Part shown: one piece after another, positions 32,021 to 64,000 of the stretch
How positions within the stretch are numbered: position 1 is the first letter of the stretch
How the letters are laid out: every line of letters begins with the position of its first letter
DNA from: Clusia tigrina
Taxonomy: Eukaryota; Arthropoda; Insecta; Diptera; Clusiidae
Assembly (NCBI GenBank): GCA_920105625.2
Contig: OV050030.1
Span: 184,454,315-184,518,314 of the forward strand
Reading direction: 5' to 3'
Length of the DNA: 64,000 nt
Notes under the pieces: model-generated
What the model was told of the DNA's origin: nothing
The model's database searches: none
Seen by the model: the letters and a program-made list of their open reading frames with translations, nothing else
Translations under genes and position numbers: made by a program

Positions 32021-32023
32021 AAA

Positions 32024-32091: not shown

Positions 32092-33300
32092 ATGAATGAA
32101 ATCTGTACAGACGACTACACAATTCAACAATTGCGAGAGTGGTGTCAAAAACTTAAATTACCTTCGCACGGTACAAAAAGTGCACTGGTTGTACGCTTGA
32201 ATACTGAAGTTCCAGATTTAAGAGAAAAATGTCCAATGATTGATGAAACTGTACTTAAAACGGGCGGCACAGTGTCGAACAAGAAAAATGAAAAAAACAA
32301 ATTTAGTGAAAAACGAACCAAAAGTAAAGGCCAATGATGAAACAAATTTAGTGAAACAAAAATGCAAATGTATTGGCAAATTTCGTCGAACATTTAAACA
32401 TAACGGCAAAAGACAAGACAAACGTTAAACCAATGCAGCAACAAATAACGGCGAACATTTAAACATAACGACAAAATATAAGACAAACGCAGAAACCAAT
32501 GCAGCAACAAATGACGGCAAATATTTAAGCATCACGGCAAAAGATAAGGTAAGCGCAGAAACCAAGATGAAGAATCTAATGCGTGCACAAGGTGATCTTT
32601 TCGATGAAAACAAGTTATCGTTCGGCATTTGGAAAGAGTTTCTGCCGCACTATGAAGTTGGTGAAGGTTTTCAAGTGTGGATTACACAAATGAAGTCAAT
32701 AAAAGAAGTGAATAAAATGAGTGACAATGAAGTTCGCGCGCTGTTAGTAACTAAGTTGCGTGGAAAGGAACGAATGTAGTTGCATTCAAAACCAAACTTT
32801 GTGACTGAAAGAGCATACCAACTTTTGTCACAAATGGAGATGTTTTTTTTGGCAAAAATGAAACTAAACTAGCGCTACGGAAAAAATTGGAAGCCAGAAA
32901 ATGGAAGTTTGGTGATCCATTCGCCGACTACTTCACTGAAAAATGCATACTGGCAAGTAATATTTTAATCGACGAAGCAGAAATGGTCGACTATCTCATT
33001 GAAGGAATTCCCGTTTTTTGAACAAAGGCGACGTTTTACGGGCGTTTAACAAAGTTGAGCTAACAAGGCAGAATGTAGTTGTTGCACCTATGTCAGAGGA
33101 TTTAAAAACAAATTCAAGATGCTTCAATTGCAACTGCTTATGACATTATGCGGCTGAGTGCAAGAAGACAAAACGTCTTCCAGGTTCGTGCTACGGTTGT
33201 GGAGCTATGCACCATTTTGTTTCGGAAAGCCCCCAAAACAAGAAGAAGGTTGCCAGTCAGCAGAATAATTATGTAAGGTCTTATATATTACCTATTTTAG
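32092..33300 (+). pseudogene. Gypsy B gag with N-terminal SAP-like motif
   Basis: ATG at 32092. Residues 8-45 (TIQQLREWCQKLKLPSHGTK, then ALVVRLN) fit a SAP motif, a short helix-helix DNA-binding fold that is unusual for a gag N-terminus. A Lys/Asn-rich segment follows, with repeated units around CAGCAACAAATAACGGC (32430-32550). The capsid-like part is at 32567-33050. Zinc-knuckle-like sequences lie at 33115-33240 (CFNCNC, then CYGCGAMHHF). Stops at 32335, 32425, 32777 and 33019 break it. The mirrored copy at 62800-63993 shares most of the stops. Confidence 0.7.
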
Positions 33301-34480
33301 ATAAAACAAATATTAATTTGGTTGCAGAATATTAATTTGGTTGCAGATAGACTACGGAAGCCCTATAAGTTCAATTCAAAGGTCAATGGTGCCGAAAAAT
33401 ATTTGGGTTAAATAAAAGTGTACTAAAAATTTTTGGGTCAATTAAATACTATTTTAGTACTAAAAAAATATGTATAGATTTAATTGTGGTGGCGAACGAG
33501 TCCTGGGCCATGGATCTGTTGTCCTTCGGAGAGATTTTGTGGAAATTACTGGATCTAAAATACTAATTGGTAACGAAGCTAATTTTGAAGAAAATGTAAG
33601 CAACACTGCAGGCCAAAATATAAAAGAGCAATATGATGAAACAAATTTTGATAGGCAAATTTTTAAAATAGATGTTTTTGATGAAGAGCTATACAAAATT
33701 ATTGATGTGATAGCTTACAAAGCCAAATTTTATTTGACCAAATATTTGAAAAATTATGTAAAACCTTTGCGATCAAATGAACCAAAGATAAAGAGCAAAA
33801 TGGAGCTAGTTTTAGAAAATCCTAAGCCTTTTAATTGTCCTCCTCGAAGGTTATCATACTCTGAAAAATCAGAGTTACAAAAAACGATAGATGAGTATTT
33901 AGGGAAAGGTTTTATACAACCAAGTGAATCAGAATTTGTATCGCCGATTGTACTGGTAAGGAAAAAGACGGGGGAACTGAAAATGTGTGTGGATTACCGG
34001 GCACTTAACAAAGTTACAGCAAAAGATAACTATCCAAATCCCTTAATAGATGACTTATTAGACAGGTTGGCGAATAGAAACTTTTTCACAAAATTAGAGT
34101 TGAAAAATTGTTTCTTCCACGTTTTTATGGATGAAGATTCGGTTAAGTATACATCTTTTATTACGCCATTAGGTCAGTTTGAGTTTCTAAGAATGCCGTT
34201 TGGGCTAAGAAATGCGCCGTCTGTTTTCCAGAGATTTGTTAACAAAATTTTTTCAGGTATGATTAGGGAAGGAAAAGGCATTATATATTTGGATGATATC
34301 ATGATTGCAACAAAGGACATTTTACAATACTAAGGGAAGTTTTTAAGAAATTAGTAGAAAACAATTTATAGTTAAGGATTGATAAGTGCAAGTTCTTAAG
34401 TACAAAGGGAAAGTATTTACGATGCACGATTTCTAGAAGTAGAATCAAGGCCGATGAAAAAGGAACAGAGGCTATAAAAA
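33301..34480 (+). pseudogene. Gypsy B protease remnant and reverse transcriptase
   Basis: RT block 33470-34333: PPRRLSYSEKSELQKTIDEY, KGFIQPSESEFVSPIVLVRKK, MCVDYRALNK, RMPFGLRNAPSVFQRF, and YLDDIMIATKD with both Asp at about 34288-34320. The first catalytic motif reads TKLELKNCFFHV, where TKLDLKNGFFHV is expected, so the first Asp is Glu here; the mirrored copy has the same change. The frame breaks at 34331. Both copies were therefore already inactive before the palindrome formed. Confidence 0.85.
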
Positions 34481-35275
34481 TAATATAACAATAATGTAAC
34501 AATTATTCCAATCCCCAGAAAGGTTCAAAATGGTTCAAAGTTTCTTAGAAGTATGTTCATATTTTAGACATTTTATAAAAGATTTTTCAATTTTAGCAAA
34601 ACCTTTACATGATTTAACAAAAAAATAAAAAATTAAAAATTTCAGTTTAAACACGTTTGAATTATTGAAGCAAAAATTAGCAGAAACACCAGTTTTAGCA
34701 CTCTATGACCCAACTGCTGAAACTAAGTTACATTGCGATGCCAGCTCAATAGGTTTTGGAGCAATTCTGTTACAAAGAAAAGAAGATAATAAACTACATC
34801 CAATTTTCTATTTTTCAAAAAGAACAACAGAAACTGAATCAAAATATCATAGTTATGAATTAGAAACGTTGGCTATAATTATTGCTCTGAAAAGGTTTAG
34901 AATATACTTACAAGGTAAGAGATTCAAAATTATTACTTACTGTAATTCGTTGACAATGACGTTAAATAAAAAGGAATTAAATCCAAGGATCGCCAGATGG
35001 GCCTTGGAACTTCAAAATTACGATTACATTTTAGAGCACCGCGAAGGAAAACGAATGCAACATGTTGATGCGCTGAGTAGAAATACAAATATATTAGTAG
35101 TAGAAACAAAGACATTTGAAGATAATTTAATCATTTGTCAAGGGAAAGACAACAATTTAACTAAGTTACGAGAAGATTTACAAACGAAAGAAAATAGTTT
35201 CTATGAAATGCGTATTGGGTTAAAATATAAAAAAAGACAATTTGCTCTTATTCTACGTACTTGAAGCCATGGAAG
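34481..35275 (+). pseudogene. Gypsy B RNase H
   Basis: Block 34665-35264: KLHCDASSIGFGAILLQ (first Asp), SKYHSYELETLAIIIALKRF (Glu), ITYCNSL where TDCNSL is usual, so one catalytic Asp is Tyr, and HVDALSRN (last Asp). The same Tyr occurs in the mirrored copy (56386-56985). It degrades the RNA strand during reverse transcription in active elements. Confidence 0.82.
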
Positions 35276-36330
35276 AACATGTTTTGTACAAATACCATTA
35301 TGAAATGGGACTTGTAGGTATTGATAAGATGACCGAGTTAATTACAAAAAGTTATTGGTTTAGCAATATTCGACAAAATAAGCTGAAAAGCCTAAGAATA
35401 ACTGTTTAAGTTCTATCGCATTTTCGGCTAAAAATGGTAAACAGGAAGGTTATTTGCATAACATCCCTAAAGGTAATATTCCATTCGAAACATTACAAAT
35501 TAATCACTATAGACCAATTAATGACACAGGTAACACAAAAAAACATCTCCTAGCAATAATCGACGGATTTACAAAATTTGTTAGATTATACACAGCAAAA
35601 ACTACAAAGTCGAAAGAAGCCATTGGGGTATTAAAATATTATTTTAGAGCATATAGCAGGCCTATAGTGCCCGATAGAGGAACTTGTTTTAACTCAAATG
35701 AATTTGCAGAATTTTTAGAAGCAAATAACATACTCGTACACCTCATAAAGATAGCAACAGCTTCTCCGCAAGCAAACGGACAGGTGGAAAGGGTGAATAG
35801 AACAATAGGAATGATAGCGAAATTGTCAGACAATAAGAAGGATGGAGCGAAATTGTCAGACAATAAGAAAAATGGACAGTGGGATAAAACTTTACAAACA
35901 GTTGAACATACAATGAATAACACGTGCCATCGGTCAACTAATCAACACCCAAGTGTTTTGCTTTTCGGAGTTCCACAGAAAGGAAAAGTTGTAGATACTC
36001 TCAAAGAAAATTTAATAGAAAGAGAGCAAGGTGCATTTACAAGGAATTTAGAAACTATACGTCAAATAGCCAAAGCAAAACAAGAGAAATTAACTTTGAT
36101 TCACACATAGGCGTATCAAAAAAGTTTATTCCCAAGTTTAACGGACCCTATAGAATAGCAAACAGTTTCCGAAACGATTGCTATTTACTGGATGATGTAG
36201 GCGGTTTTCAACAGTCCCGTACCCCTTACAATGGATTTTGGGCGATAGCAAATTTAAAACCATGGTTCAATGGTCGTGACAGGATAGTAGATGAAAATAA
36301 TATTAATAAAACTCCAAAATAACAATGTTA
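35276..36330 (+). pseudogene. Gypsy B integrase
   Basis: The HHCC region is degraded near 35290-35420. Core block 35454-36110: FETLQINHYRPI (first Asp changed to Asn in ..INHY.. where IDH-type is expected), VPDRGTCFNSNEF (second Asp) and QANGQVERVNRTI (Glu). A 30-bp tandem duplication gives AKLSDNKKDGAKLSDNKKNG (35815-35878). Both arms share it. The C-terminal tail is at 36100-36320 and the stop follows before the 3' LTR. Confidence 0.8.
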
Positions 36331-36365
36331 AGATCAGGTGATCATAAATGTCAGGATGGCCGTTT

Positions 36366-36595
36366 TGTAGCAATATATGTAAAAATGTATATAACCATTT
36401 CTTATCATATGTATGTATTTTTTAGGTTATTGTGAACTGATCATTGATATAAAATCTATTACAAATTGGATCATGTCATATTCGAAGATTTTAAAGAAGA
36501 CGAACGAATTCAGTTCGTGTTTGGCGGTCGTAGTTGAAAGACGCAAATAAAGAAAAAGTAAAGTAATAAACAAAGTCTTTTAAAGCTTGCTAAAA
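36366..36595 (+). repeat. 3' LTR of Gypsy B
   Basis: Starts TGTAGCAATATATG after GGATGGCCGTT; no clear polypurine tract is seen. It matches the 5' LTR through AAAGCTTGCTAAAA. The mirrored LTR is at 55055-55284. Confidence 0.87.
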
Positions 36596-37330
36596 TCTGA
36601 TTTAAAAAAAATACATTTCTTCGGATGGAGTTTTAAGTTTGTTTTTCGACAAATTTCGAAAACAGATCTTAAATTGGCAAGCATATGTGCTTCAGAGCAT
36701 CCGACTATTAAAAGGTCGTCCATATAGACAAAAGCTTTATTTGGACTTAAACCTGAGAATGCTAACGACATTATACTCTGAAACGAATTAAGGGCTATTT
36801 TTAATCCGTCTTTATCTAGTTCTATTTGGTGGAATTCGTTCATAAGATCTAACTAAAGTATTTGTCTCTACCCAATTGGTCCACGATATCGTCAATTCTT
36901 GTGGAGTATACTATAGTTTTTAATGTAAACTGGAATTTTATTATTGACACGTAATGTTTGTCTATAGAAATTGTTATACGTTATGTTATCTGATTCAATT
37001 GCAAATATATCGGTAAATGACGATCAAAGTTCCAAAAGTTTTCTCTGGCCTGAAGTGGACAATTTTTTTATATTTTGTCGAGTATCTCTTGTCTTTCAGG
37101 AGAGTCATTTGAGCAGTTAAAATTTATAACATAATAAGAGTCAAGGCTTTCAGTTTCCACAGAAATGTTTTCTATTAATAAATTTTTATCTGTAGTGTTA
37201 TCGATGCGAACAAAAGTGTTATTTTTGTTAACAATAGTATTTTCAACAAAGACACCATTAGCTATCTCCTGTGTTGGGATTAATAATTCATTTTCTGTAG
37301 AGGCTATAAATACTCTCTTTATCACTTCGG
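36596..37330 (-). pseudogene. Gypsy A/C protease-RT region, internally deleted
   Basis: Minus-strand block 37325-37068 (MIKRVFIASTENELLIPTQE, VFVENTIVNKNN) is the protease/RT linker. A block with YNNFYRQTLRVNNKIPVYIK (about 36970-36910) leads, after loss of most of the RT fingers, to FHQIELDKDGLKIALNSFQ (about 36840). Then come MSLAFSGLSPNKAFVYMDDL (YMDD box, about 36730) and NLKLHPKKCIFF. The reading stops at Gypsy B. The right arm mirror is 54325-55054. Confidence 0.8.
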
Positions 37331-37994
37331 CTCTTGCGGGGAGCGAATGGTGTGTCTAAAATTTGTAAATGAGCAAAAGGTCGTAAAAGATTTGATCTAA
37401 TTATAAAATAATTTGTTTCATGCCAATAGTAATCAAAACACAATTATTTTTTTTTATAAAATCAAGTCCTATAATGCCATCGCATAGTATAGGAAAGGCA
37501 TTATTTACGATATGAAAATTATGAGATATTTTAAATTCTTTAAAAAAAAAATTGTGTTTGCAACACAGCCTACTGTTGAGATAATACCTTCATGAATATT
37601 GTGAGTATTTTGAAAGTCATTTAATGGGGAGCATTCTTGTTTTCCGGAATGGCTTCAATTTTTCGGATACTACTCGCTTGTCTGCCAATTTTATGGTATC
37701 TAGTATTATTTTGGTAATTGTTTGGGGTCTATAGTTTCGGTTACGATTTTGATTGTTGATATTGTTGTAACCTGAGTTAGAATAGTTTTGGTTGTAATAA
37801 CCACCTCTACTTCTATTATTATATCCTCTTCTACCTCTGTATCTTTGATTGTATTAGTTTATGCTCTCTGTTAATTTAGTTTATGCTCACTGTATTATCA
37901 GTGTCGGCATTTAGATCGATGAACTTTGTAAATACAATGTTGAGATTAGTAAAGTTACCTGCTTTCATTAAGAGTTTTACTTCTGGCGACCGAG
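37331..37994 (-). pseudogene. Gypsy A/C gag C-terminal region and protease start
   Basis: Minus-strand reading SPEVKLLMKAGNFTNLNIVF leads into an Asn/Arg/Gly/Tyr-rich RNA-binding-type tail (NRSRGGYYNQNYSNSGYNN region, about 37720-37860). Degraded protease-like sequence follows near 37440-37560 (PILCDGIIGLDFI). It is separated from the gag N-terminal part by the element at 38000-39462. Without that insert and one CGTTT copy, the frame is continuous as KSIVNARSPEVK. Confidence 0.75.
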
Positions 37995-37999
37995 CGTTT

Positions 38000-39462
38000 T
38001 TATACCCTTTACCTTTAAAAAAGGTAAATAGGGTATACTAGCTTTGTGCTTTTGAGAGGTGTTGCAATTTCGAGAAGGAGGCGTGGTAGGTATGGACATA
38101 CTCGTATATATACAGATATGATCAGAGCTATCTTAGAGCTATCTTAATGACTAGCTTCGTTAGAGCTATCTTAATGAAATTTTGCAAAAGTATAGTCTGG
38201 AAAAAGATACAGAACCAGATTGCTATATGGGCCGATTTGGGCAAAGACCACGCCTACCTCCCATATAAGGAACTTTTTCACCCTTTTTAAAATGCCTATA
38301 ACTTCGGTCCGATTGATGGAATCGTGTCGCAATGTGGCAGTTATGGAGATGTGGGTCCTACTAAACACTATGCAGAAAGTGGGCGGTATATATTAAGTGC
38401 CACGCCCACTATTAACAAATATTAATAACTTAAGTTCTGGTGGAGATTTACGAACGAAATTTTACTTGAAGGAATATGTGGACATTATAAAGCTATCTGC
38501 AATAAATGGGGCTGATCAGGGAAAAGACACGCCCACTTTTGATATAAGGAACTTTCGGGTGGCCTACCTATGCTCGTATTGATTCCAGCGGAATAAAAAT
38601 TGGCAGAAATATGCATGGGGTTCATAATAGTGTGTATGCAGAATATGGAGATCATAATACAACTGCCACGCCCACAATTAGCCAAAAATCATTACTAGGT
38701 TCCTATTAAAGATTTATCAACGAAATTTTGCAGGAATATTGCGGGAAATAACAGTAAACACCACACAAAAAATGGGCGTGTTATTTTTCCAGCCACGCCC
38801 ACAATTGACATATTATTATAACTTACGACCTATACAATATTTTTGGACGAAATTATATATTAGTACATATATGGACCCTACAGAGCCATATGCAAGAATG
38901 GGGGTCGTTCTGATGAAGGATACGCCTCCCTCCCATATAATTAACTTTGGCAACCCTACTTTAAAGCAATTACCCTATCTATGCTTCTAGTGATGATATA
39001 TTAATACAAATTGGTAGATGTATACATTGAATCTGTTCTAGGATGCATTCCAAATATGGGCAGATTATTGCTACTGCCACGCCCACAATTAACCAAAAAT
39101 CATTACTAGGTTCCTATTAAAGATTTATCTACGAAATTTCACAGGAGTGTTGCGGGTACTAACATTAAACGCCACAAAAAAAATGGGCGTGTTATTTCTA
39201 CAGCCACGCCCAATATTGACATATTAGTATAACTTACGACCTATACAATATTTTTGGACGAAATTTTACATTAGGGGTTATATTGACACTACAAAGCCAT
39301 AGACAAGAAATGGCGCCGATATAATCATTTCAAGGTACCCTGTCAAAAATTACCGTTAGTATGCTCCTAATGATGATTTATGAAGAAAATATCCCCATTG
39401 TTGAACTTGCACGCACAAGGGTATTTCGTAGTCGGTCTAACCCGACTTCAGACTTCTTTACT
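38000..39462. mobile_element. 1.46-kb non-coding element with 5-bp target duplication
   Basis: Flanked by CGTTT at 37995-37999 and 39463-39467, and inserted in Gypsy A/C gag. It has no ORF of note. Two imperfect copies of a ~410-bp unit (about 38670-39075 and 39078-39480) share CACGCCCACAATTA and AATCATTACTAGGTTCC blocks. CCACGCCCAC recurs through the element. The left end reads TTATACCCTTTACC with a short inverted pair. The right end has the hairpin AGTCGG-TCTAAC-CCGACT (39429-39446) before CTTCTTTACT. There are no terminal inverted repeats, LTRs or poly(A). Its class is unknown. The mirror is at 52181-53657. Confidence 0.7.
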
Positions 39463-39467
39463 CGTTT

Positions 39468-39969
39468 ACAATGGACTTAACGGCCGTTTGTGTAGCATAG
39501 TTTTGAGCTACTTGTGGACTAAGTCCGTCTGACAGGTAAGCGTTTTGCAATTGTGAGGTTAATTGCTCTATTTCTTTTGCATACTCTGTTGTTTTTTTTG
39601 AAGTTTGTTTTGTATTAAGCAACTTTGCGGATGCTGATTGTGCTGACTCACGTTTGATTTCCTGTTTTAATGTAGCCTTTAGTGCTGAGATTGTTTGTCT
39701 GTTATCTTCTTCGTCTGTATCTGTTTCTAATTATTCTTGCTCGCTATCATCCGTCTCAGTTCCTCTGCTTCTTTTTTATGAAACGATGTGTATTTTTCAT
39801 ATTGCCTATGTAATGTTGCTCTAATATTGTTAAAAGTTTCAATTAGTATTTTAACGTGTTTATTCAATGTAGCAGATTTAATTTTTCTATTTTGACTTAC
39901 GCTTTTATAAGATTGTTTAAACTTAGTTTCTAATGGCTTTAAAGTTTGCAGAATGGACTCCAATTGCAT
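39468..39969 (-). pseudogene. Gypsy A/C gag N-terminal region
   Basis: Starts at ATG 39967-39969 (MQLESILQTLKPLETKFKQ). Lys-rich helical sequence runs to a stop at 39727. The reading resumes with ETDTDEEDNRQTISALKATL and then LSDGLSPQVAQNYATQTAVKSIVN up to the inserted element. Such coiled-coil-rich gag N-termini occur in mdg1/412-type elements. In the mirror at 51674-52175 the same stop is present. Confidence 0.75.
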
Positions 39970-40588
39970 ATTTAATTATTATTAGCACTTAAAATCATAC
40001 CTTATATATTATATATCTACTACTTTTGCTGCTGAATTTTGTTGTCATCTTCATTATTTGACTCAGTGTGTTCCGATTGTAGATCGATGTTTAGTTCGTT
40101 GTTGTTGCTACAATTGTAGATTGATGTTAAATTCTGTTTTGCCCACGTGCAATGCCATTGAAACCCTTCTTTATCGCCGCTCGTATCCATTTAATAATGT
40201 ATATAATTAATATCATTATTGATATTAATATTAGTATGACTTCCACCAAGTTAATTTCGTCAGACTTAATTAAAGTTTGTTCATTGTTTATTTAGCTTTT
40301 TCAATGTTGAATGTTTTTATGATTTCGTTATTGTCTTTTTCTTCCACCGTTTTGCCTACTTCGTATCCGTCGAAGATTAATGGGACAGTGGACAGTATTT
40401 TTTTCCACTACGACATTTTTAAATATGTATATTACTTCAATTAACAATACACATGTTTCGCAATTCCTTGCGTTGACGGTTTTCTTAATTGTTTAAATTT
40501 TATTATTATTTTTTCGTACTCGATGAGACACTTCTCTTTTTATTTCATTTTTATTACTTTATATATATAACTCTTTATATATAACATC
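39970..40588 (-). other. Gypsy A/C 5' leader
   Basis: Leader between the primer site and gag, without a long ORF. It is rich in ATT and AT repeats (TATATATAACTCTTTATATATAAC at 40560-40583). Only its gag-proximal 250 bp survive in the right arm (51426-51673). Confidence 0.6.
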
Positions 40589-40605
40589 TCCTGGCAGGAT
40601 CGCCA
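40589..40605 (-). other. Primer-binding site of Gypsy A/C
   Basis: On the minus strand TGGCGATCCTGCCAGGA begins directly after the LTR end. It starts with TGG, complementary to the tRNA CCA end. It resembles, with mismatches, the tRNA-Arg site of 412/mdg1-type elements. The tRNA identity is unsure. Confidence 0.55.
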
Positions 40606-40939
40606 TGTTATAAAAAGACGAACCACTTGGTTTGAATGTCCGTCCAAAACTGACTTTATTGAACCCACTCTTTCTTACAATAATTCATAATTATAATTTA
40701 CATACATTCTTAACGCTAAACAAATTGCAAAGTAAGTGAAAATACACCGTTAGGTGAATCATATTTGGTATTCTATTTAAACGCAACTTGATATTAGCAA
40801 TTGTGCAGGGTTACTCAAGTGCATAGAAATATTTATGGTATGACTAATCAGCTTGACACTTTGGCAATATCAAAGTGTCAAGTGCTGAGTGTTTCGGTTA
40901 TTGACTTGTATTAGTCACAAACGTTGCATTTTCACTACA
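40606..40939 (-). repeat. 5' LTR of Gypsy A/C
   Basis: 334 bp. On the minus strand it starts TGTAGTGAAAATGCAACG and ends TTATAACA (TG...CA ends), followed by the primer site. A TTCAATAAAGTC polyadenylation-like signal lies at about 40655-40665. No second LTR is present in the window. It is deleted from the right arm. Confidence 0.82.
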
Positions 40940-43415
40940 ATGGAATGAAGTTACTCCAGCTTAACCTCAATCACTGCACAGCTGCACAAGACCTACTTGA
41001 GTAGACGGCGAGAGAGCACAAGATCGACGCCGCTGTGCTCAGTGAACCATATTGTCGGAAGCACCAAGGAGTCTGGGTCGAGAAAATGCTTGCCGAGCTG
41101 CATTATGGGTGTGTGGAGTCAAGCCACCTCAACTCGGGGACGTCAGGAGGGATGAAAACTACGTCAAAGCAACCATAAGAGGAACCACGGTGTACAGTTG
41201 CTACAGGGCACCAAGCCTAACTACGGATTAGTTTGAGTCGGCAGTAGACAGACTTGTCCTAGATACACACGGCAGGAACCCTGTAGTAATTGCTGACGAT
41301 TTCAACTCATGAGCATCTGAATGGGGCTGCGGCCGTACTAAGCCAAAGGGTCATATCCTCATGGATGCACTCGCAACACTTTACGTGATCCTCTTGAATA
41401 CCGGCGAGATGACTTTTGCAAAGCATGGCATGCTGCGAGGAGAAGGTATCAATGTTCTATACGGAAACCAGATTCCCTGCAGAAACACCAGGCCTTCAAG
41501 GTAGCCAGAAATGTACAAAAGAAGGCAATTAAGCAGAGCAAGAGCACCAGATTCGCTGAATTGTGCGCACAGGTTGAGGATGACTCATGGGGCATGGCAC
41601 ATAGACGTTGTCATGCGAAAATTGCCTGCTATAGGCAGCCGCTCCCAACCTGTCGAATGTTGCTCAGACGCATAGTGGCACAGCTCTTTCCAGTACATAA
41701 TTATGTCCCATACGAGCTCCCTCTCGAGCAAACGAAGGAATCCATACCCAGTGTGATTATAGATGAGGTGTTCCGGGCGGTTGGGAAGTTTGGAGACCAG
41801 AAAGCACCTGGCTCAGAGAGAATTCCCAACCGAGTGCTCAAGACCGCACCTGCACTGAACCCAGAGCCACTGATGAATATGTACGACGCCTGCCTGAGAG
41901 AAGGCATTTTCCGAAAGAGATGGAAGAGGCAATGACTGGTCCTGGCGCTGAAAGCCAACAAACCAACAGTGGACCCTTCAGAGTAATGCCCGTTGTGCAT
42001 GTTAGATGCGGCGGGAAAAATTTTGGATCGGATAATCTGTGACAGGATTGATGAGGCCATTGCAAATTCTGGAGGGCTCTCAAAACGGCATTATGGCTTC
42101 CGGAAGGCGAGATCCACCGTGGACGCCATCAACGAACTTGTCCAGACGGCCAAAACAGCGATCCAGGGGAAACGATGGAGGGGTGGAACCAAGAGGTATT
42201 GCCTTGTGGTCACCCTAGATGTCAAAAACACTTTCAACTCAGCTAGCTGGGAACGCATAGCCAGAGCGTTAGCCGAGTTTGCGGTACCCATCTACCTGAG
42301 GCGAATGATTGCCAGTTACTTCAGCGACAGGATCCTGCTCTACCAGTCCGAAAAAGGTGTGAAGTTGCACAAGATTATCGGAGGAGTTCCCCAGGAATAG
42401 GTGCTTGGACCGTTACTCTGGAATGCTATGTACGACGGCATCCTTCGTGTACAGGTCCCTGATGGTATCAAAATCATCAGATACGCGGACGACCTAGCAT
42501 TGGTAATCACAGCTAAATACTTGGAGGAAGTAGTAGCAGAGGCCAACCGAACTTTGGCTACACCATCTGAAGATGGCTTGCAAACGTTGCACTTAGCTTG
42601 GCTGAACATAAAACCGAGACAATCCTGGTTTCGAGCAGCAGGGATTGGAGGTAGTGGAAATAAGAATACTTTTGCTTACCTTCAAAGAACATCTACGGCG
42701 CGTGGGAGATAAGGCAGCACACACATGTTCTCTCCTATGTAGAATAATGCCCAATATGGGAGGACCCAGTCAGCGGAAAAGGCAACTCATCGCCGGGGTT
42801 GTCAGATCCATTATTCTCTATGCAGCGCCAATAAGGGCCGAAAATGCGGATGTGAAGGCTTACGTCGGCACCATTGAAACAGCATACAGGACAAGTGCAC
42901 TACGAGTGATCTGCGCATACTGCACCGTATCCACAGATGCCACCTTGGTAATAGCCGGCAAGACTCCCGTGAACCTGCTAGCGAGAGAAGCGATGAACCT
43001 CTACCACGCCAAAGGGACACACGCGACAAATGTAGAAGAGCTCTTGGCAATTGTAAAGCGGAGGACCCTTCAAGAGTGGCAAGCCCAGTGGGACACTTCT
43101 ACAAGTGGCCGCTGGACAAGAAGGTTGATCTCGAACATTCAGCAATGGGTAAGCAGGTCGCATGGTGAGGCAAATTACTACGTCACACAATTGCTGACAG
43201 GCCATGGAGGTTTTCGGGCATATTTGCACAGATTCCACTTGGAGGAATCCCGCGGCTGTGCAAACTGTAGAGGCACAGAGATAGAAGATCCCAAACATAG
43301 CTTCTTCTATTGCCCCCGTTATAAAAGTGCTAGAGAGGTACTAGAAGGAGTGTGTGGAGAGCTCGTGATGCCCGATAACATAGACATAACATGCCCCCCC
43401 CCGGAGAAGTATTAA
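40940..43415 (+). pseudogene. R1 copy 2 ORF2: endonuclease, RT, C-terminal Cys/His domain
   Basis: Starts near ATG 40945 (MKLLQLNLNHC, the usual R1-clade ORF2 start). The endonuclease is degraded to about 41440, with IADDFNS where AGDFN is usual (about 41293). RT: KAPGSERIPNRVLKTAPALNPE (about 41801), YGFRKARSTVDAINELVQTA (42091 on), VTLDVKNTFNSASW (about 42211), GGVPQE then a stop at 42398, and RYADDLALVITAK (about 42480). The C-terminal domain has HGGFRAYLHRF and CANCRGTEIEDPKH with a final Cys (43255-43315). Stops at 41934 and 42398 and frame changes near 42560-42645 inactivate it. Confidence 0.83.
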
Positions 43416-43553
43416 AAAAAAAACAAAAAAAGGCGCCCTGACTGCAGGCAACAACTCTGCTGGACAACTAGAAGTATTACACCGAAGTGGTTGACCAGCA
43501 AAAGCTGAAGGTGGCCCAAGGACAATTGGACGACAATAACAACAAGCACAGAC
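43416..43553. repeat. Short fragment related to the solo LTR
   Basis: After an A-rich run (43414-43431), the segment with CTGAAGGTGGCC-AAGGACAA and AACAACAAGCAC resembles 27758-27810 of the solo LTR. The BEL copy 2 LTR starts directly after it. The fragment is mirrored at 49988-50125. Confidence 0.55.
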
Positions 43554-44074
43554 TGTTGCATTCTAAGCGAAGTCAACAACCGCTGTAATGCACGCCCTTG
43601 ACTGCGGCCAACAACAGCGCAAATCGCTGACAACGAATTTTCACGTGCATCAGCACTTTGTGCACATTAATTGCAGGTTTTTTCGCATTACCTTTTTATT
43701 ACTTTTTTCTGTTTTATTTTATATGTAAAATATCTAAGTAAGCAATAATGGCTCAATTGTAATAGTATAAATTAAGTGAAATTATTAAATATGTATCAGT
43801 TCTTTGAAACCTATCAACGAGTGCTTTATTTAATTGGTCATTCCGGAGATCTGGTTATATGCACTAGTATCTTCACTCAACAATAGACTTGGTTTTATAC
43901 CTAGGCTACTTCCCACATAATTATGGAAGATCTGGTTATAAGCACCAGTAACTTCATCCAATATTAGTCTTGGTTTTGCACCTAGGCTATTTCATAACCA
44001 TAAAACAAGTGTCTGGAGTATCTACCAGGACTCAGCATAAGTAAGGTGGAATAAAAAAATTCCCACTCTCCACA
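43554..44074 (+). repeat. 5' LTR of BEL copy 2
   Basis: 521 bp, starts TGTTGCATTC and ends CTCCACA. Nearly the same as 11697-12219. It mirrors 49467-49987 with no length change. Confidence 0.93.
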
Positions 44075-44075
44075 T

Positions 44076-44093
44076 TGGTGACCCCGACGTGAT
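44076..44093 (+). other. Primer-binding site of BEL copy 2 (tRNA-Trp)
   Basis: TGGTGACCCCGACGTGAT is the complement of the 3' end of a eukaryotic tRNA-Trp including CCA, over 18 bases. It lies one base after the LTR. The tRNA sequence is recalled, not searched. Confidence 0.8.
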
Positions 44094-44128
44094 CCTGTGC
44101 CTGATCACAATCATCGTAGAAGCTTAAT

Positions 44129-45365
44129 ATGGAGACTCTTGCGAAGCACCAGGAGCGGATTTGGCAGCATATCGAAGCGCTCATAAGCAACTTCAAAAAG
44201 GACTCCGAACAGCGTAAAACGATAATCTATTACGAGGAACGCAGAAGACGACTGGATGAATACTGGACAACCTTTGAGCATGCATATTTTCAAAACGATT
44301 ATTAAGCCAAAATTACAGCTATTTCATCAACATATCGGGATATGTTTGAGAGACGCCTCGCGGAGCTGAATCAACACCCAGAAACTTCAATTGAGGAGAA
44401 GTTAGATAGTTCTCCTGCGGCCACAACAGATAATCAAGGTCACACGGCATATTCAGCAGATACCAAACCGCAGCAAGACTCATCAACCAATCGTCGACTA
44501 AGTGAGTCTACGCGGCTAATTTGACGCCAAGTCGAAGTGATAATAACACTACGGCGGCAACTAAATTCAATTATGGATGAAACGGATAGACGCTCGAAAC
44601 AGTTCCTTTCATTCAAGAAAGGCAACATACTACAACATTGGAACCATATCGAAGACATCAACAATCAGCTATGGGAATTGGAGGCTGATCCAACTCTTGT
44701 GGGTTATGATACTGCGAACTGCCAGAACTCGTTCTACCTAAAGTCCAACTTAGTAGGAGAAGCCGAGCGCCTGATAAAACACCTCCCAGCCACTGAAGAA
44801 AACTACTTGGCAGCTTGGAGCATTCTAAAGGAGCGCTATGAGAATACTAGGCTGCTGGTAAACGCACTGCTAGGTAAACTTGTCAAACAACCCAATGTTG
44901 TAGAAGAAGGAGCCGACAGTTTAAAGCGTTTCCATGACACAACCCAAGAATGTATATTGGGATTACAAAACATCGGAATTGCCACTGGCACCTGGGATCC
45001 AATGCTGATGTTCATATGTATAAGGAAGTTGGACAAGGCTTCACACACACTGTATGAACAATCGCTAGCTAAGCAACGGGAACTCCAATCATTCAAGGAT
45101 TTCCTAAGGTTCCTGCAATCACGCTTCCAAGCTCAAGAGGCTTTTGGAGGCAAAGCAATCAGCAAAGCAAGTACACTACTTCCAACAAATACCGTCAATT
45201 GTCCGCTTTGTGGAAGTAACCATTATCTCTACGCATGTAAGGACTTTGGCAAGTTGAACCCTGACAAGCGGCTGTAACAAGTGAACCGTTATAATCTCTG
45301 CGTCAATTGTCTCAAATCAGGGCACTCGCTCTCGAACTGCGTTTCAAGTGGATGCCGGAAGCCAT
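44129..45365 (+). pseudogene. BEL/Pao copy 2 gag
   Basis: ATG at 44129 (METLAKHQERIWQHIEALI). Blocks in order: a helical N-terminal region (stop at 44303-44305), a linker (44342-44524), then the Pao gag domain (44537-45277) with KGNILQHWNHIEDINNQLWE and LVNALLGKLVKQPNV. Zinc knuckles follow in CPLCGSNHYLYAC (about 45195) and, after a stop at 45275-45277, CVNCLKSGHSLSNC. The mirrored copy shares the stops. Six of 246 residues differ between arms in the main block. Confidence 0.85.
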
Positions 45366-49465: not shown

Positions 49466-49466
49466 A

Positions 49467-54400: not shown

Positions 54401-55054
54401 TTGTTGAAAATACTATTGTTAACAAAAATAACACTTTTGTTCGCATCGATAACACTACAGATAAAAATTTATTAATAGAAAACATTTCTGTGGAAACTGA
54501 AAGCCTTGACTCTTATTATGTTATAAATTTTAACTGCTCAAATGACTCTCCTGAAAGACAAGAGATACTCGACAAAATATAAAAAAATTGTCCACTTGAG
54601 GCCAGAGAAAACTTTTGGAACTTTGATCGTCATTTACCGATATATTTGCAATTGAATCAGATAACATAACGTATAACAATTTCTATAGACAAACATTACG
54701 TGTCAATAATAAAATTCCAGTTTACATTAAAAACTATAGTATACTCCACAAGAATTGACGATATCGTGGACCAATTGGGTAGAGACAAATAGTTTAGTTA
54801 GATCTTATGAACGAATTCCACCAAATAGAACTAGATAAAGACGGATTAAAAATAGCCCTTAATTCGTTTCAGAGTATAATGTCGTTAGCATTCTCAGGTT
54901 TAAGTCCAAATAAAGCTTTTGTCTATATGGACGACCTTTTAATAGTCGGATGCTCTGAAGCACATATGCTTGCCAATTTAAAATCTGTTTTCGAAATTTG
55001 TCGAAAAACAAACTTAAAACTCCATCCGAAGAAATGTATTTTTTTTAAATCAGA
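51426..55054 (+). mobile_element. Mirrored Gypsy A/C fragment (gag to RT)
   Basis: Plus-strand copy of 36596-40217: leader remnant, gag N-terminus (51674-52175), the 1.48-kb non-coding element, gag tail (53663-54010), protease/RT linker (54325-54582) and RT with VYMDDL (54807-55054). The 5' LTR and primer site are missing because of the right-arm deletion. All parts carry the left-arm lesions. Confidence 0.85.
52181..53657. mobile_element. Mirrored non-coding element with AAACG duplication
   Basis: Flanked by AAACG at 52176-52180 and 53658-53662. It matches 38000-39462 in reverse with small indels. It was inserted before the palindrome formed, since both arms carry it at the same point. Confidence 0.75.
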
Positions 55055-55284
55055 TTTTAGCAAGCTTTAAAAGACTTTGTTTATTACTTTACTTTTTCTT
55101 TATTTGCGTCTTTCAACTACGACCGCCAAACACGAACTGAATTCGTTCATCTTCTTTAAAATCTTCGAATATGACATGATCCAATTTGTAATAGATTTTA
55201 TATCAATGATCAGTTCACAATAACCTAAAGAATACATACATATGATAAGAAATGGTTATATACATTTTTACATATATTGCTACA
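55055..55284 (-). repeat. Mirrored 3' LTR of Gypsy B
   Basis: Reverse complement of 36366-36595. It ends at TTGCTACA (55277-55284). Confidence 0.87.
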
Positions 55285-57553
55285 AAACGGCCATCCTGAC
55301 ATTTATGCTCACCTGATCTTAACATTGTTATTTTGGAGTTTTGTTAATATTATTTTCATCTACTATCCTATCACGACCATTGAACCATGGTTTTAAATTT
55401 GCTATCGCCCAAACTCCATTGTAAGGGGTACGGGACTGTTGAAAACCGCCTACATCATCCAGTAAATAGCAATCGTTTCGGAAACTGTTTGCTATTCTAT
55501 AGGGTCCGTTAAACTTGGGAATAAACTTTTTTGATACGCCTATGTGTGAATCAAAGTTAATTTCTCTTGTTTTGCTTTGGCTATTTGACGTATAGTTTCT
55601 AAATTCCTTGTAAATGCACCTTGCTCTCTTTCTATTAAATTTTCTTTGAGAGTATCTACAACTTTTCCTTTCTGTGGAACTCCGAAAAGCAAAACACTTG
55701 GGTGTTGATTAGTTGACCGATGGCACGTGTTATTCATTGTATGTTCAACTGTTTGTAAAGTTTTATCCCACTGTCCATTTTTCTTATTGTCTGACAATTT
55801 CGCTCCATCCTTCCTATTGTCTGACAATTTCGCTATCATTCCTATTGTTCTATTCACCCTTTCCACCTGTCCGTTTGCTTGCGGAGAAGCTGTTGCTATC
55901 TTTATGAGGTGTACGAGTATGTTATTTGCTTCTAAAAATTCTGCAAATTCATTTGAGTTAAAACAAGTTCCTCTATCGGGCACTATAGGCCTGCTATATG
56001 CTCTAAAATAATATTTTAATACCCCAATGGCTTCTTTCGACTTTGTAGTTTTTGCTGTGTATAATCTAACAAATTTTGTAAATCCGTCGATTATTGCTAG
56101 GACATGTTTTTTTGTGTTACCTGTGTCATTAATTGGTCTATAGTGATTAATTTGTAATGTTTCGAATGGAATATTACCTTTAGGGATGTTATGCAAATAA
56201 CCTTCCTGTTTACCATTTTTAGCCGAAAATGCGATAGAACTTAAACAGTTATTCTTAGGCTTTTCAGCTTATTTTGTCGAATATTGCTAAACCAATAACT
56301 TTTTGTAATTAACTCGGTCATCTTATCAATACCTACAAGTCCCATTTCATAATGGTATTTGTACAAAACATGTTCTTCCATGGCTTCAAGTACGTAGAAT
56401 AAGAGCAAATTGTCTTTTTTTATATTTTAACCCAATACGCATTTCATAGAAACTATTTTCTTTCGTTTGTAAATCTTCTCGTAACTTAGTTAAATTGTTG
56501 TCTTTCCCTTGACAAATGATTAAATTATCTTCAAATGTCTTTGTTTCTACTACTAATATATTTGTATTTCTACTCAGCGCATCAACATGTTGCATTCGTT
56601 TTCCTTCGCGGTGCTCTAAAATGTAATCGTAATTTTGAAGTTCCAAGGCCCATCTGGCGATCCTTGGATTTAATTCCTTTTTATTTAACGTCATTGTCAA
56701 CGAATTACAGTAAGTAATAATTTTGAATCTCTTACCTTGTAAGTATATTCTAAACCTTTTCAGAGCAATAATTATAGCCAACGTTTCTAATTCATAACTA
56801 TGATATTTTGATTCAGTTTCTGTTGTTCTTTTTGAAAAATAGAAAATTGGATGTAGTTTATTATCTTCTTTTCTTTGTAACAGAATTGCTCCAAAACCTA
56901 TTGAGCTGGCATCGCAATGTAACTTAGTTTCAGCAGTTGGGTCATAGAGTGCTAAAACTGGTGTTTCTGCTAATTTTTGCTTCAATAATTCAAACGTGTT
57001 TAAACTGAAATTTTTAATTTTTTATTTTTTTGTTAAATCATGTAAAGGTTTTGCTAAAATCGAAAAATCTTTTATAAAATGTCTAAAATATGAACATACT
57101 TCTAAGAAACTTTGAACCTCTTGAACCTTTCTGGGGATTGGAATAATTGTTACATTATTGTTATATTATATTTATAGCCTCTGTTCCTTTTTCATCGGCC
57201 TTGATTCTACTTCTAGAAATCGTGTATCGTAAATACTTTCCCTTTGTACTTAAAAATATATAAAGATAGCTGTCACGCTCTTTGGTTTACTATCAAGCTG
57301 TCGGGTAAAATATATTTTTCAAGTAAAACTAAGCAATTGAAATTATCAAAAGCTGTAAAAGATTGCTAATAAAATCTGGAACTATCACCTGAACAAAAAA
57401 TGAATATATATCAGGCTTGATTATTGCTCAAAACAACATTTTAAATTGTGTAGAGAACTTTCAACAGTAGCAAAAACAAAAAAAAATAGATAAGGTGTGA
57501 ACAAAGCAGCGTACCTCCTCACTCACAGCAATTCAGCGATTTGAGTGGATCGA

Positions 57554-58710
57554 ATGGCGGAGGATGAAATGGAAAGCGAAAAAAATAGAGCTTATTGTAA
57601 AAAATGCAAAAAAAAAGTGGATACAAGAGGTATTAAATGTGAAGGTCTATGCCAAACATGGTGGCATATTGACTGTATTAATTACACCGACGATGATTAT
57701 AATGCTATCATTTCTTTGAAAAACAAATGTTTTTGGGTCTGTGAAACAGACAAGAAAAAATTTAAGCAATGGTTGAAAGGGGAATCAAATTTAGAAAAAA
57801 TTTGCGCGGCAAACGAAGAAATAAAAAAAATCAAAGACAGTATAAGCGAAATAAAAACAGTTCTAAATACTATGGAAAAAAACAATAACAACAAACAACA
57901 AAAAATTCAAACATATGCAGAAGTGTTGACATCCAACGTAAACAAACCACAACCCAGCAAACCAATGAGCCAAAACAGGATTATAATTATACCAACACTA
58001 AACGGGCAAAACAGTATGGACACTGAAAAACAAATTAAAGCAAAAATTTTACCAGCAAAAATAAAAGTGGGAATTTCATCAATTAAACACATAAATAAAG
58101 GTGGAATCATGGTCACAACGGATGACACTAACGGAAGAGACAAGCTAGAAAATGAAATTAAACAGCAATTTACAGAAGGCTACATAATATCTGCTCCGAA
58201 AACAAAACTACCTAAAATATTCTTTTCGAACATAGATCACGAATACAATCAGGATGATCTCGTGGAAGAACTGGTGGCAACAAACCACTTCATAGAATCA
58301 AATGATACTATGAAGCTGGTACATAAATATCTGAATAAAAAACAAAATTGTGGAATTATATAGTTGAAGTCACTGGAGAGACACTGTCAAAAATGAACAA
58401 TAGATATATAATGCTCAACTACCGTGCGCGGTACGTAAAGGAATATGTGTCTGTGTTGCGATGCTTTAAATGCCAAAAATACCACCATCTTAGTAGCAAG
58501 TGCATGGGAGAGGAGGAATGCGGCTTATGTACAGAAAAACATGCAACAAAAACATGCAAAGTTACATGTAATTTTAAATGCATCAACTGCCTAAGGGCAA
58601 ATGAACATGGCGCAAACTTTCTGAGTGGTCATAAAGCTGGCGCAAACAATTGCAGCGTACATATTGCAAAGATAAGAGGCGAAAAAGAACAAATAAACTA
58701 CTCATCATGA
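57554..58710 (+). pseudogene. LINE P ORF1: PHD-type zinc finger, coiled coil, zinc knuckles; one frameshift
   Basis: ATG at 57554 (MAEDEMESEK). Residues about 14-60 form a PHD-like Cys/His cluster: CKKCKKK, CEGLCQTWWHIDC, and a distant CFWVC pair. A coiled-coil-like Lys/Glu-rich region follows (NEEIKKIKDSISEIKTVL), then a basic/neutral domain with IIIIPTLNGQN. Near 58345 the frame shifts by one base, apparently loss of one T in AAAATTGTGG. The next frame carries knuckles CFKCQKYHHLSSKC, CGLCTEKHATKTC and CINCLRANEHG with a last Cys near 58655. The stop TGA is at 58708-58710. The PHD and knuckles suggest nucleic-acid or chromatin binding. Confidence 0.85.
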
Positions 58711-61475
58711 TCGATAGTGCGCTATTAAAAATACTTTATGTCAATATCTGTAGTGTTCGTAACAAATTATTTGAACTAGAGCTCATGGTTAACAACCACA
58801 AAAATACAGATGTCGTAATTGTTGCAGAAACATGGCTCTACGAAAATGAAATTGGATCTTACAATCTACCAAATTATACGTCGATTCACAATTGCAGAAA
58901 CGGAAATCGTGGGGGTGGCACGGCGATTTTCATCAAGAATAACCTAAGCTACAATGAAATAAATAAAGAGGAGAAGTACAATCTTACAATCATTGAAATT
59001 ACGAATCTCAAGAAACCGCTTGTAATCGGCACGTTTTATAAAGCACCTAATGAAAATTGCAACGTATTTATTGATTTCATAGAAGACAAATTTCAAAACA
59101 ACAAAAGTTCCATATTCTTTGCAGACGTCAACATTAACCTTTTAGAACAGAATAACACAGTCACCAGGTATTCAGACTTAGTTCATAATAACGGTTATAC
59201 TTTTGTCAACAACACAATACCAACAAGACAAACAGACAGCTCAAACACACTGATTGACCACATTATCACAAACATTGACACCACACACAAAATATGTTAC
59301 GAACTAGAGGATACAGACATCACTGATCACAAATACACAACAGCAACAATAACTAATATATTACAAAAATAGGAGCCGATGAAATATCAGTTTATTCCTA
59401 GCATCAATTATGCAAAAATGTCAGAGTTAGTTGAAAGAAAATTAAACAGAACCGGAGCTACTGAGCTGGAGGATCTAGCAGAAATAATAAAAACAGCGAA
59501 GAATACTTGTACGAAATACATAAAAATAAGATCTCGAAGCAACAATTGGATCACGCCAGAACTCCAAAAAAAACTAAAGCTGAGACAAAAACTATACAAA
59601 GCATCGAAATCTAATCTTACGGATCAAAATAAAAAGGCAGAATATAAAAAAATAAAGCAGGAAGTGGATATTCTTATTAAAAAAACCAAAGAGCGACATA
59701 TAAACGTACAAATAGAAAAAGCTGGCAACAACTCAAGAAAACTCTGGAAGACAATAAACACAACTTTAAAAAATAAGACAAAAACAGCAACTACGTCAAG
59801 TGGCAATCATGAGCAGACATATCAGCACAAAAAACAAATAGCGAACAAATTCAACAAATACTTCAACGAGGCTGCAACAAACTTAGCAAAAAATAACATA
59901 GCAGCAAATACAACAATACCTAACGTAGTCAATCATAAATCTATTTTTGTAAAACCGGTTACACAAGAAGAAATACAAGAAATAATTACAAATCTTAACA
60001 GTAATGCAGCAAAAGGAATAGACGGAATATCTGTAAAGGATCTTCAGATACTTCAGCCAACAATAAACTCAATCTTGGTAAATATGATAAACAAGTGCTT
60101 CACAACAGGCGAATTCCCTACATACCTAAAAAAAGCCATCATAACACCGATATACAAAAAAGGAGCGAAAGATAAATGCGAAAACTACAGGCCAATTGCA
60201 GTACTCAATGCAATCAGCAAAGTTTTTGAAAAAGCTATTGATATAAGAATACAAAACTTTATTGATACAACAATAAAATTCGACAGTAATCAATTTGGTT
60301 TCCTAGCTAGCAGCGGTACAGAATCAGCAATTACGGCAACTATGGAAAAGATCTACGACGCTCTGGACGAAAAAAAAATTGTGGCGGCCACTTTCATAGA
60401 CCTGTCAAAAGCATTCGACCTTGTGGATCACGAAAAACTCCTTAATATCTTGAACGATATAGGTATACGTGGAGTGGCAAACAATTTGATACAATCATAT
60501 TTAAGCAATCGGCCTCATGCAGTAAAAAGAGATGGAGAGTACAGTGACGAACTAATAACCAAAATTGGTGTACCACAGGGTTCGATCCTTGGACCAAAAC
60601 TTTATCTACTGTACATAAACAACATTAGAAAATGCAGTTTTAATTCGGCGTACAATATCTACGCTGATGATACAAGTTTTCTAACAACAGCTATATCTAA
60701 AAAAGGTTTGGAGGATAAAGTAAACCAGGATATGAAGACTTATCATGAATGGGCTTGCGCAAATGGGCTCAGCATAAACATTGAGAAAACAAACTACATC
60801 GTCTCTCAACGACATAACAATACGGAAATAAACATAAAAGTAAAAATCAACGACACAGAAATAAAAAGAGTTCAGCACACGAAATACCTAGGAATGGTGA
60901 TAGACGAAAAACTAAACTATGAAGACCACATAAAGGGAATAAAAAATCACATAATTCCAATCATACGAGCGATCAAAAGACTTGGATCTATACCAGAAAA
61001 GGCAGCCAAGCTGATATACAACGGACATATTTTATCAAAAATAACATATAACATATGTAGCTGGAGTCAGTGCAGTAAATTCCAAATAGAACAAATCGGA
61101 AGGCTAATGAACAAAACAATCCGAATCCTCTTCAATAAAAACACATTTACATCAACAAAAGACCTGTACAAAATCACTAAACTAATGGACATCAACCAAC
61201 TTATATACACCGAAAAATGTAAATACATCTATAAAATAAAAAACAATCTACTCAAATCAAACATGATACTCACTACAAGAAACGCGATACATCAACATAA
61301 TACACGACAGAAAAATAACTTCAACATCCCAAAAGCAAGAACAACACAGCAAGTCAACAGCCTGAAACATAGCGCAATAAAACCATTCAACAACTTACCA
61401 GAAGAAATAAAAAATGCAGGAAACATCAATATCTTTAAGCAAAAACTTAAAAACTATGTTATGAATTTAAGATGA
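58707..61475 (+). pseudogene. LINE P ORF2: endonuclease and reverse transcriptase, one in-frame stop
   Basis: ATG at 58707 overlaps the ORF1 stop (ATGA). The whole 922-codon frame is open to 61473-61475 except one TAG at 59370-59372. Endonuclease: LYVNICSVRNK, VVIVAETWLYE (Glu), FFADVNINLL (the GDFN site, here ADVN), TLIDHIITN and DITDHKYT. RT: AAKGIDGISVKDLQ, YRPIAVLNAISKVFEKAI, ATFIDLSKAFDLVDHEKLL, GVPQGSILGPKLYLLY and IYADDTSFLTTA (about 60658) with both Asp. The thumb has TKYLGMVIDEKLNYEDHI. With one repair-size lesion this is the least decayed gene of the window. Confidence 0.92.
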
Positions 61476-61730
61476 ACAACTCAATGATTTAATCAATATG
61501 AAGTGATATCTCGCAATTTTATAGCTAAGAAAATTATTTACTAGTTTTAAATTATTTTTAATATTTTCTAACATCCTCTTATACACGGGTATTAATCCGT
61601 CTGAGGATTCCAGTAACTTCAATTTTATATTTATATTTAAAATCCAAAGATTAATTTTTGTTTTCTTTAAATTTAATCAGCTAAATATAAACATAAAACA
61701 ACTAAAAAAAAAACAAAAAAAAAAAAAAAA
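61476..61730 (+). other. LINE P 3' UTR and poly(A) tail
   Basis: AT-rich, no ORF. A compact GC-richer stretch at 61570-61612 (CCTCTTATACACGGG and CCGTCTGAGGATTCC) is the only distinct block. It ends in A runs at 61705-61730, directly before the Gypsy B target sequence. Confidence 0.8.
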
Positions 61731-62655
61731 ACTTGCACTTATCAATCCTTAACTATAAATTGTTTTCTACTAATTTCTTAAAAACTTCCCTTAGTATTGT
61801 AAAATGTCCTTTGTTGCAATCATGATATCATCCAAATATATAATGCCTTTTCCTTCCCTAATCATACCTGAAAAAATTTTGTTAACAAATCTCTGGAAAA
61901 CAGACGGCGCATTTCTTAGCCCAAACGGCATTCTTAGAAACTCAAACTGTCCTAATGGCGTAATAAAAGATGTATACTTAACCGAATCTTCATCCATAAA
62001 AACGTGGAAGAAACAATTTTTCAACTCTAATTTTGTGAAAAAGTTTCTATTCGCCAACCTGTCTAATAAGTCATCTATTAAGGGATTTGGATAGTTATCT
62101 TTTGCTGTAACTTTGTTAAGTGCCCGGTAATCCACACACATTTTCAGTTCCCCCGTCTTTTTCCTTACCAGTACAATCGGCGATACAAATTCTGATTCAC
62201 TTGGTTGTATAAAACCTTTCCCTAAATACTCATCTATCGTTTTTTGTAACTCTGATTTTTCAGAGTATGATAACCTTCGAGGAGGACAATTAAAAGGCTT
62301 AGGATTTTCTAAAACTAGCTCCATTTTGCTCTTTATCTTTGGTTCATTTGATCGTAAAGGTTTTACATAATTTTTCAAATATTTGGTCAAATAAAATTTT
62401 GTCTTTGTAAGCTATCACATCATTAATTTTGTATAGCTCTTCATCAAAAACATCTATTTTAAAAATTTGCCTATCAAAATTTGTTTCATCATATTGCTCT
62501 TTTATATTTTGGCCTTCAGTGTTGCTTACATTTTCTTCAAAATTAGCTTCGTTACCAATTAGTATTTTAGATCCAGTAATTTCCACAAAATCTCTCCGAA
62601 GGACAACAGATCCATGGCCCAGGACTCGTTCGCCACCACAATTAAATCTATACAT
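61731..62655 (-). pseudogene. Mirrored Gypsy B reverse transcriptase
   Basis: Minus-strand copy of the left RT, with KLELKNCFFHV and YLDDIMIATKD as in the left arm. A one-base change of frame near 62390 (TTTGTCTTTGTAAGC where the left arm reads through AAAGCCAAATTT) is private to this arm. LINE P sits just downstream in the RT/RNase H spacer. Confidence 0.83.
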
Positions 62656-64000
62656 ATTTTTTTAGTACTAAAATAGTATTTAATTGACCCAAAAATTTTT
62701 AGTACACTTTTATTTAACCCAAATATTTTTCGGCACCATTGACCTTTGAATTAAACTTATAGGGCTTCCGTAGTCTATCTGCAACCAAATTAATATTCTG
62801 CAACCAAATTAATATTTGTTTTATCTAAAATAGGTAATATATAAGACCTTACATAACTATTCTGCTGACTGGCAACCTTCTTCTTGTTTTGGGGGCTTTC
62901 CGAAACAAAATGGTGCATAGCTCCACAACCATAGCACGAACCTGGAAGACGTTTTGTCTTCTTGCACTCAGCCGCATAATGTCATAAGCAGTTGCAATTG
63001 AAGCATCTTGATTTTGTTTTTAAATCCTCTGACATAGGTGCAACAACTACATTCTGCCTTGTTAGCTCAACTTTGTTAAACGCCCGTAAAACGTCGCCTT
63101 TGTTCAAAAAACGGGAAGTCCTTCAATGAGATAGTCGACCATTTCTGCTTCGTCGATTAAAATATTACTTGCCAGTATGCATTTTTCAGTGAAGTAGTCG
63201 GCGAATGGATCACCAAACTTCCATTTTCTAGCTTCCAATTTTTTCCGTAGCGCTAGTTTAGTTTCATTTTTGCCAAAAAAACATCTCCATTTGTGACAAA
63301 AGTTGGTATGCTCTTTCGGTCACAAAGTTTGGTTTTGAATGCAACTACATTCGTTCCTTTCCACGCAACTTAGTTACTAACAGCGCGCGAACTTCATTGT
63401 CACTCATTTTGTTCACTTCTTTTATTGACTTCATTTGTGTAATCCACACTTGAAAACCTTCACCAACTTCATAGTGCGGCAGAAACTCTTTCCAAATGCC
63501 GAACGATAACTTGTTTTCATCGAAAAGATCACCTTGTGCACGCATTAGATTCTTCATCTTGGTTTCTGCGCTTACCTTATCTTTTGCCGTGATGCTTAAA
63601 TATTTGCCGTCATTTGTTGCTGCATTGGTTTCTGCGTTTGTCTTATCTTTTGTCGTTATGTTTAAATGTTCGCCGTTATTTGTTGCTGCATTGGTTTAGC
63701 GTTTGTCTTGTCTTTTGCCGTTATGTTTAAATGTTCGACGAAATTTGCCAATATATTTGCATTTTTGTTTCACTAAATTTGTTTCATCATTGGCCTTTAC
63801 TTTTGGTTCGTTTTTCACTAAATTTGTTGTTTTCATTTTTCTTGTTCGACACTGTGCCGCCCGTTTTAAGTACAGTTTCATCAATCATTGGACATTTTTC
63901 TCTTAAATCTGGAACTTCAGTATTCAAGCGTACAACCAGTGCACTTTTTGTACCGTGCGAAGGTAATTTAAGTTTTTGACACCACTCTCGCAATTGTTGA
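62656..64000 (-). pseudogene. Mirrored Gypsy B gag, runs off the window
   Basis: Minus-strand copy of 32124-33470. Knuckle region at about 62880-63010 (CYGCGAMHHF), capsid-like block 63557-63345, and the SAP-like start at 63993-63787. The ATG and 5' LTR are beyond 64000. Gag differs from the left arm at several positions, for example KNENNKF against KNEKNKF. Confidence 0.78.

Follow-up and report, generated by a model that had tools for sequence, protein, structure and literature searches.

Paired palindromes in retrotransposon sequence, repeated in at least five direct units on one scaffold of the fly Clusia tigrina

In the literature consulted, much of the work on the centres of large palindromes concerns reporter constructs, transgenes and the Y chromosomes of primates. 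Fold-back inverted duplications of yeast and humans have inverted arms around a short unduplicated loop, formed at a short natural inverted repeat, with human spacers of 766–70,466 bp in 21/21 junctions (PMC10622511, PMC3907307). Origin-dependent inverted-repeat amplification (ODIRA) in yeast yields two inverted junctions per amplified unit, with a short interrupted inverted repeat present at one junction (PMC10766183). Here we describe two palindromes, P1 and P2, in a stretch of 64,000 nt (the window) from Clusia tigrina (Diptera, Clusiidae; assembly GCA_920105625.2, contig OV050030.1, hereafter C1, 184454315–184518314); positions without prefix are counted from the window start. P2 is centred at 46747–46794 and P1 at 3751–4318, and the window lies in unit 4 of at least five direct units spaced 126–139 kb apart on one scaffold.

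P2 resembles the yeast and human fold-backs in its inverted arms and short loop at a natural inverted repeat, but its spacer, at 10 or 48 bp, is far below the human range, and its product is interstitial and tandem-amplified. Two inverted junctions per unit recall ODIRA, from which the locus differs in that the segment between the junctions is non-native and no inverted copy of the unduplicated segment U was found. Long arms and arm–arm inversion are shared with primate Y palindromes (PMC3723533); however, the arms of human P6 differ by approximately 0.02% via gene conversion, compared to 0.8–1.1% here, with differences grouping by side, and a scan of open frames found no genes. Small asymmetric central deletions are also seen in palindromic transgene concatemers and in centre-break of a 15.4-kb mouse palindrome (PMC8701086), whereas the present case is natural, old, and available as five sister copies in different centre states. 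No description of such an array was found in the literature searched, most subscription papers lying outside that search.

Palindrome P2 and the five-unit array

The window features of P2 are as follows.

30224..46746, strand +: left arm (Y), ending in the 5' half of a BEL retrotransposon at the reverse transcriptase
46747..46794, strand +: spacer, 48 bp, in opposite orientation in the next unit; identical to the 78-bp centre of unit 1 once 30 bp are taken off its right side
46795..64000, strand −: right arm (Y'), going on to approximately 65996
57257..61731, strand +: long interspersed nuclear element (LINE) inserted in the right arm but not in the left, found in units 4 and 5
51425..51427: site of a 1566-bp deletion in the right arm (left-arm counterpart 40218–41783), common to units 4 and 5
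50179..50180: site of a 348-bp deletion in the right arm (left-arm counterpart 43012–43359); the 348 bp are kept in unit 5

A preliminary description made from the window alone had reported a giant diverged palindrome with a 48-bp spacer, and both self-BLAST and alignment of the arms bear this out: the segment from 32124 to the axis matches, inverted, that from the axis to 64000, which is too long for chance. The inverted match stands, while the arm length of 14.6 kb given there was an effect of the window edge: with the next 200 kb added to the comparison, the arms extend outward to 30224 and to 65996, the latter some 2 kb beyond the edge of the window. Mirrored positions total 93541, as had been stated, with constant length from the axis to approximately 43470, that is, over more than 3 kb. 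In a global alignment, the arms pair over 12,696 columns, of which 96 (0.756%) are substitutions, half of them transitions (48) and half transversions (48); the alignment further has eight single-base indels and one indel each of 7, 14 and 19 bp. The difference rate is 0.69–0.91% per arm quarter, and the innermost 590 bp are identical (permutation p 0.009–0.011). Large differences comprise the LINE of 4475 bp, present in the right arm only, and 1566 and 348 bp present in the left arm only; the 348-bp difference is a loss in the right arm, since a related element copy in the window retains these bases. The arms carry older shared lesions as well as private ones, as had been noticed earlier. A 66-bp tandem repeat at 32387–32565 lies inside the arm and recurs inverted at 63559–63737; other short tandem repeats of the window are at 12420–12703 (59 bp) and 27392–27541 (34/68 bp).

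The assembly (1.214 Gb in 666 contigs) was searched with 701 bases around the P2 axis, with the P1 centre, and with a between-unit marker; the best 40 candidates were scored in each case, out of 195, 361 and 961, respectively. Five places match all 701 bases of the P2 probe, and the other 35 scored match one side only. Full matches to the P1 centre are also found at five places, all in the same orientation (C1 start positions below).

P2 centre, units 1 to 5: 184096522, 184226156, 184361549, 184500714 (the window), 184626672
P1 centre, five places: 184053898, 184183331, 184318767, 184457954, 184583884

The between-unit marker has five occurrences, all in the same orientation, including one ahead of unit 1. 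As P2 centres, P1 centres and the marker are each found at five places, there are at least five direct units. A copy of a marker for the segment end Z (C1:183992937–183993636) lies 61 kb before the P1 centre of unit 1, compared to 19.5–28.5 kb in the other units; this reflects either inserted sequence or an array that differs at its left end.

Units 4 and 5 allow for dating the fold-backs relative to the array. Among 161 variable sites of P2, 98 split left from right arms in both units, two split the units, none are crossed, 60 are private and one is of another kind. For P1, 240 sites vary among three arms, with 190 uniting the two right arms, 28 uniting the unit-5 arms, and 22 remaining. Same-side divergence between the units is 0.17–0.25%, and left–right divergence is 0.78–0.86% in P2 and 1.08–1.15% in P1. 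As the side-specific differences are common to the units, the fold-back predates the array, and the site patterns place both fold-backs before units 4 and 5 were duplicated; the excess of side-specific over unit-specific sites (98 to 2) is not that of arms homogenised within each palindrome, as in the Y type. The arms traverse unrelated Gypsy, LINE and BEL sequences at near identity, the centre is present in five units, and the units share side-specific differences; hence P2 is a fold-back and not a set of insertions, in agreement with the preliminary description.

The P2 centre: probable original form and later changes

The axis had been placed inside BEL pol, and the comparison with native copies agrees: eight aligned homologues, as well as 8/8 genomic BEL copies fetched from the 35 one-sided places, follow the left arm up to the centre, to GATCGA. 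In native BEL, GATCGA is followed by 16 nt and then TCGATA, forming a natural inverted repeat ATCGA/TCGAT in all eight fetched copies; a short inverted repeat was therefore already present where P2 is centred. For units 1–3 we read 10 kb around each P2 centre and the loci matching the P2 and P1 centres. Their P2 centre consists of GATCGA, 10 nt and TCGATC, with symmetric arms beyond except for small differences in unit 2, and 78 bp separate TCATCA from TGATGA. In units 4 and 5, 30 bp beside the loop are absent on one side, giving the 48-bp spacer edged by these two motifs, and the spacer of the window equals the first 48 of the 78 bases of unit 1. The proposal that TCATCA and TGATGA paired to start the fold-back is thus not supported: they appear to be the edges of a later one-sided 30-bp deletion, and the centre in its original form probably differed from the 48-bp spacer. 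This order of events takes the 78-bp form as the older one, because unit 1 is the most diverged and because of the native BEL sequence. The comparison suggests that a loop of 10 nt did not keep the palindrome from persisting as its arms diverged by about 1%.

The loop is oriented + − − + − in units 1 to 5, the − form keeping the native BEL sense. A 38-bp deletion lies on the left side in unit 1 and on the right side in units 2 and 3, so deletion and loop flipped together. How far the exchange extends was assessed at 28 sites, all no more than 4.9 kb from the axis, at which the left arms of units 2–5 differ from the right arms of units 3–5: unit 1 has exchanged states at seven, unexchanged states at two, and identical states in its two arms at 19. 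The unit-1 inversion would thus extend at least 3.27 kb from the axis, with an unexplained unexchanged patch at 1592–1765. The spacer of unit 4 also differs in orientation from units 3 and 5, but of 31 sites, the first 725 bp from the axis, 27 keep their sides, four are mixed and none are exchanged, so this flip seems limited to the inner 0.73 kb. By these comparisons two units have inverted P2 centres, with the arms exchanged too in one of them. In units 4 and 5 neither side has the 38-bp deletion, owing either to repair from the other arm or to its absence from their ancestor; short-range repair between arms near the centre is possible. Changes of this kind fit published palindrome behaviour: small asymmetric central deletions stabilise the 15.4-kb mouse palindrome (reviewed in PMC8701086), a 52-bp spacer, but not one of 12 bp, abolished frequent fork stalling in eukaryotic cells (PMC7999016), and arm crossovers invert human P6 at a low rate (PMC3723533).

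Palindrome P1, segment U and the shared BEL element

The inverted pair at 1–8110 is the middle of P1, whose arms are about 17–19 kb long. P1, U and the BEL long terminal repeats (LTRs) are placed as follows.

1..3750, strand −: P1 left arm (X'), extending left of the window; complete view in the next unit
3751..4318, strand +: P1 spacer, 568 bp, with the BEL integrase region and the first LINE bases; one orientation in 5/5 units
4319..23333, strand +: P1 right arm (X), with a LINE, the BEL 3' part and the Gypsy 5' part
23334..30223, strand +: U, unduplicated, native continuation of X; its joint to Y is novel
43554..44074, strand +: BEL 5' LTR, starting with TGTTGC, its end set from a comparison to other copies; CAGAC (43549–43553) comes just before
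11697..12217, strand +: BEL 3' LTR, ending with TTAACA; followed by CAGAC (12218–12222)

U continues X natively because Gypsy reverse transcriptase spans position 23333, and the joint of U and Y at 30223/30224 is novel and non-native. The P2 centre lies in the 5' half of BEL and the P1 centre in the 3' half, with an identical 5-bp target duplication outside both LTRs. The BEL/Pao assignment of the element hosting both centres follows from DUF1759 (PF03564), a Pao-type reverse transcriptase (RVT_1), DUF5641 (PF18701) and the located LTR ends; homologues carry PF05380, and the integrase region was recognised solely via homologous BEL copies. Among 797 relatives of the reverse transcriptase, 120 were listed at 42–58% identity, and the species-named ones among these are arthropods. 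At the P1 junction, microhomology amounts to approximately 1 bp, without a short pre-existing inverted repeat at the centre, and the two sides are asymmetric by 568 bp. The LINE in X is flanked by an 11-bp target duplication (4288–4298 and 8972–8982). A 216-bp tandem pair occurs in the LINE of both P1 arms (409–846 and 7251–7688), and one P1 arm of unit 5 is shorter by one 216-bp copy.

In unit 2, an LTR-retrotransposon insertion (C1 near 184228240) sits approximately 1740 bp to the right of the P2 centre. Among the arms seen it is private to the right arm of this unit, its identity to copies located right of the array is 99.0–99.6%, and some of the extra length of unit 2 may be due to it. Young duplications form a second stretch right of the array, where C1:184666416–184688126 (212102–233812 from the window start) holds near-identical direct repeats (99.1–99.9%) made of LTR-retrotransposon fragments; these have long open frames and are BEL-like and gag/protease-bearing.

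Origin and significance

The best reading, to which we give a probability of roughly 0.6, starts from a break inside a single BEL retrotransposon that would have separated its 5' and 3' halves. Each broken end would then have turned into an inverted dimer, probably because the DNA folded back on itself as the break was healed, whether through a template switch at a fork or through a hairpin-capped break; the two palindromes would have been joined into one composite, and the composite amplified into five tandem units. Breakage-fusion-bridge cycles, with both palindromes formed by end-joining of sister chromatids after replication of a broken chromosome and no hairpin priming, would account for the minimal microhomology and the asymmetry of P1, as expected from unequally trimmed sisters, but the natural inverted repeat exactly at the P2 centre in 8/8 BEL copies fetched speaks against them, and we regard them as unlikely. 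Somewhat more doubtful is ODIRA or another extrachromosomal route, where a hairpin-capped X–U–Y molecule is replicated to an inverted dimer and re-inserted: a published model exists (PMC10766183) and at least one of the two inverted junctions per unit lies at a short interrupted inverted repeat, but the joint of U and Y is non-native, so that a native segment between the junctions with an inverted central copy and undisturbed flanks is not what we observe, and Z (partly unreadable in unit 4) yielded no inverted copy of U.

Very improbable is priming of the fold-back by TCATCA/TGATGA around a 48-bp loop, with the 78-bp centres arising later by templated extension. The 6-bp inverted pair at the spacer edges speaks for it, as does the use by ODIRA junctions of inverted repeats about 100 bp or less apart (PMC10766183); still, none of the eight native BEL copies has TGATGA after the spacer, and the 78-bp form is found in the most diverged unit 1 as well as in units 2 and 3. 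An assembly or amplification artefact, that is, a chimeric palindromic read joining two haplotypes end to end, is hardly credible. Divergence of 0.76% with few large indels resembles alleles, the innermost 590 bp are identical, such products are common after whole-genome amplification (PMC1855051, PMC6218980, PMC13265396), and assembled palindromes may be false, including misassemblies (PMC7953838); but instead of a single read-like junction the same centre occurs at five regularly spaced places, three with the longer form, and side-specific variants are common to several units.

A palindrome resembling a read artefact in one window can thus prove real after a whole-assembly search. With five sister copies, side-specific markers and native BEL for comparison, one can read directly in which order the centre underwent deletions, flips and repairs. 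We put at even odds the broader view that a break in a single BEL made both ends palindromes, that the composite was kept and tandem-amplified, and that the five sister centres record asymmetric deletions, short-range arm repair and two or more inversions. Apart from one inversion, which would reach at least 3.3 kb on each side, these changes would lie no further than about 0.7 kb from the axis, and the array would amount to a natural long-term assay of the instability of palindrome centres in the germ line of an animal. The array is a natural replicate series for the instability of palindrome centres, and if the single-break origin is true, it also links both ends of one break to two palindromes.
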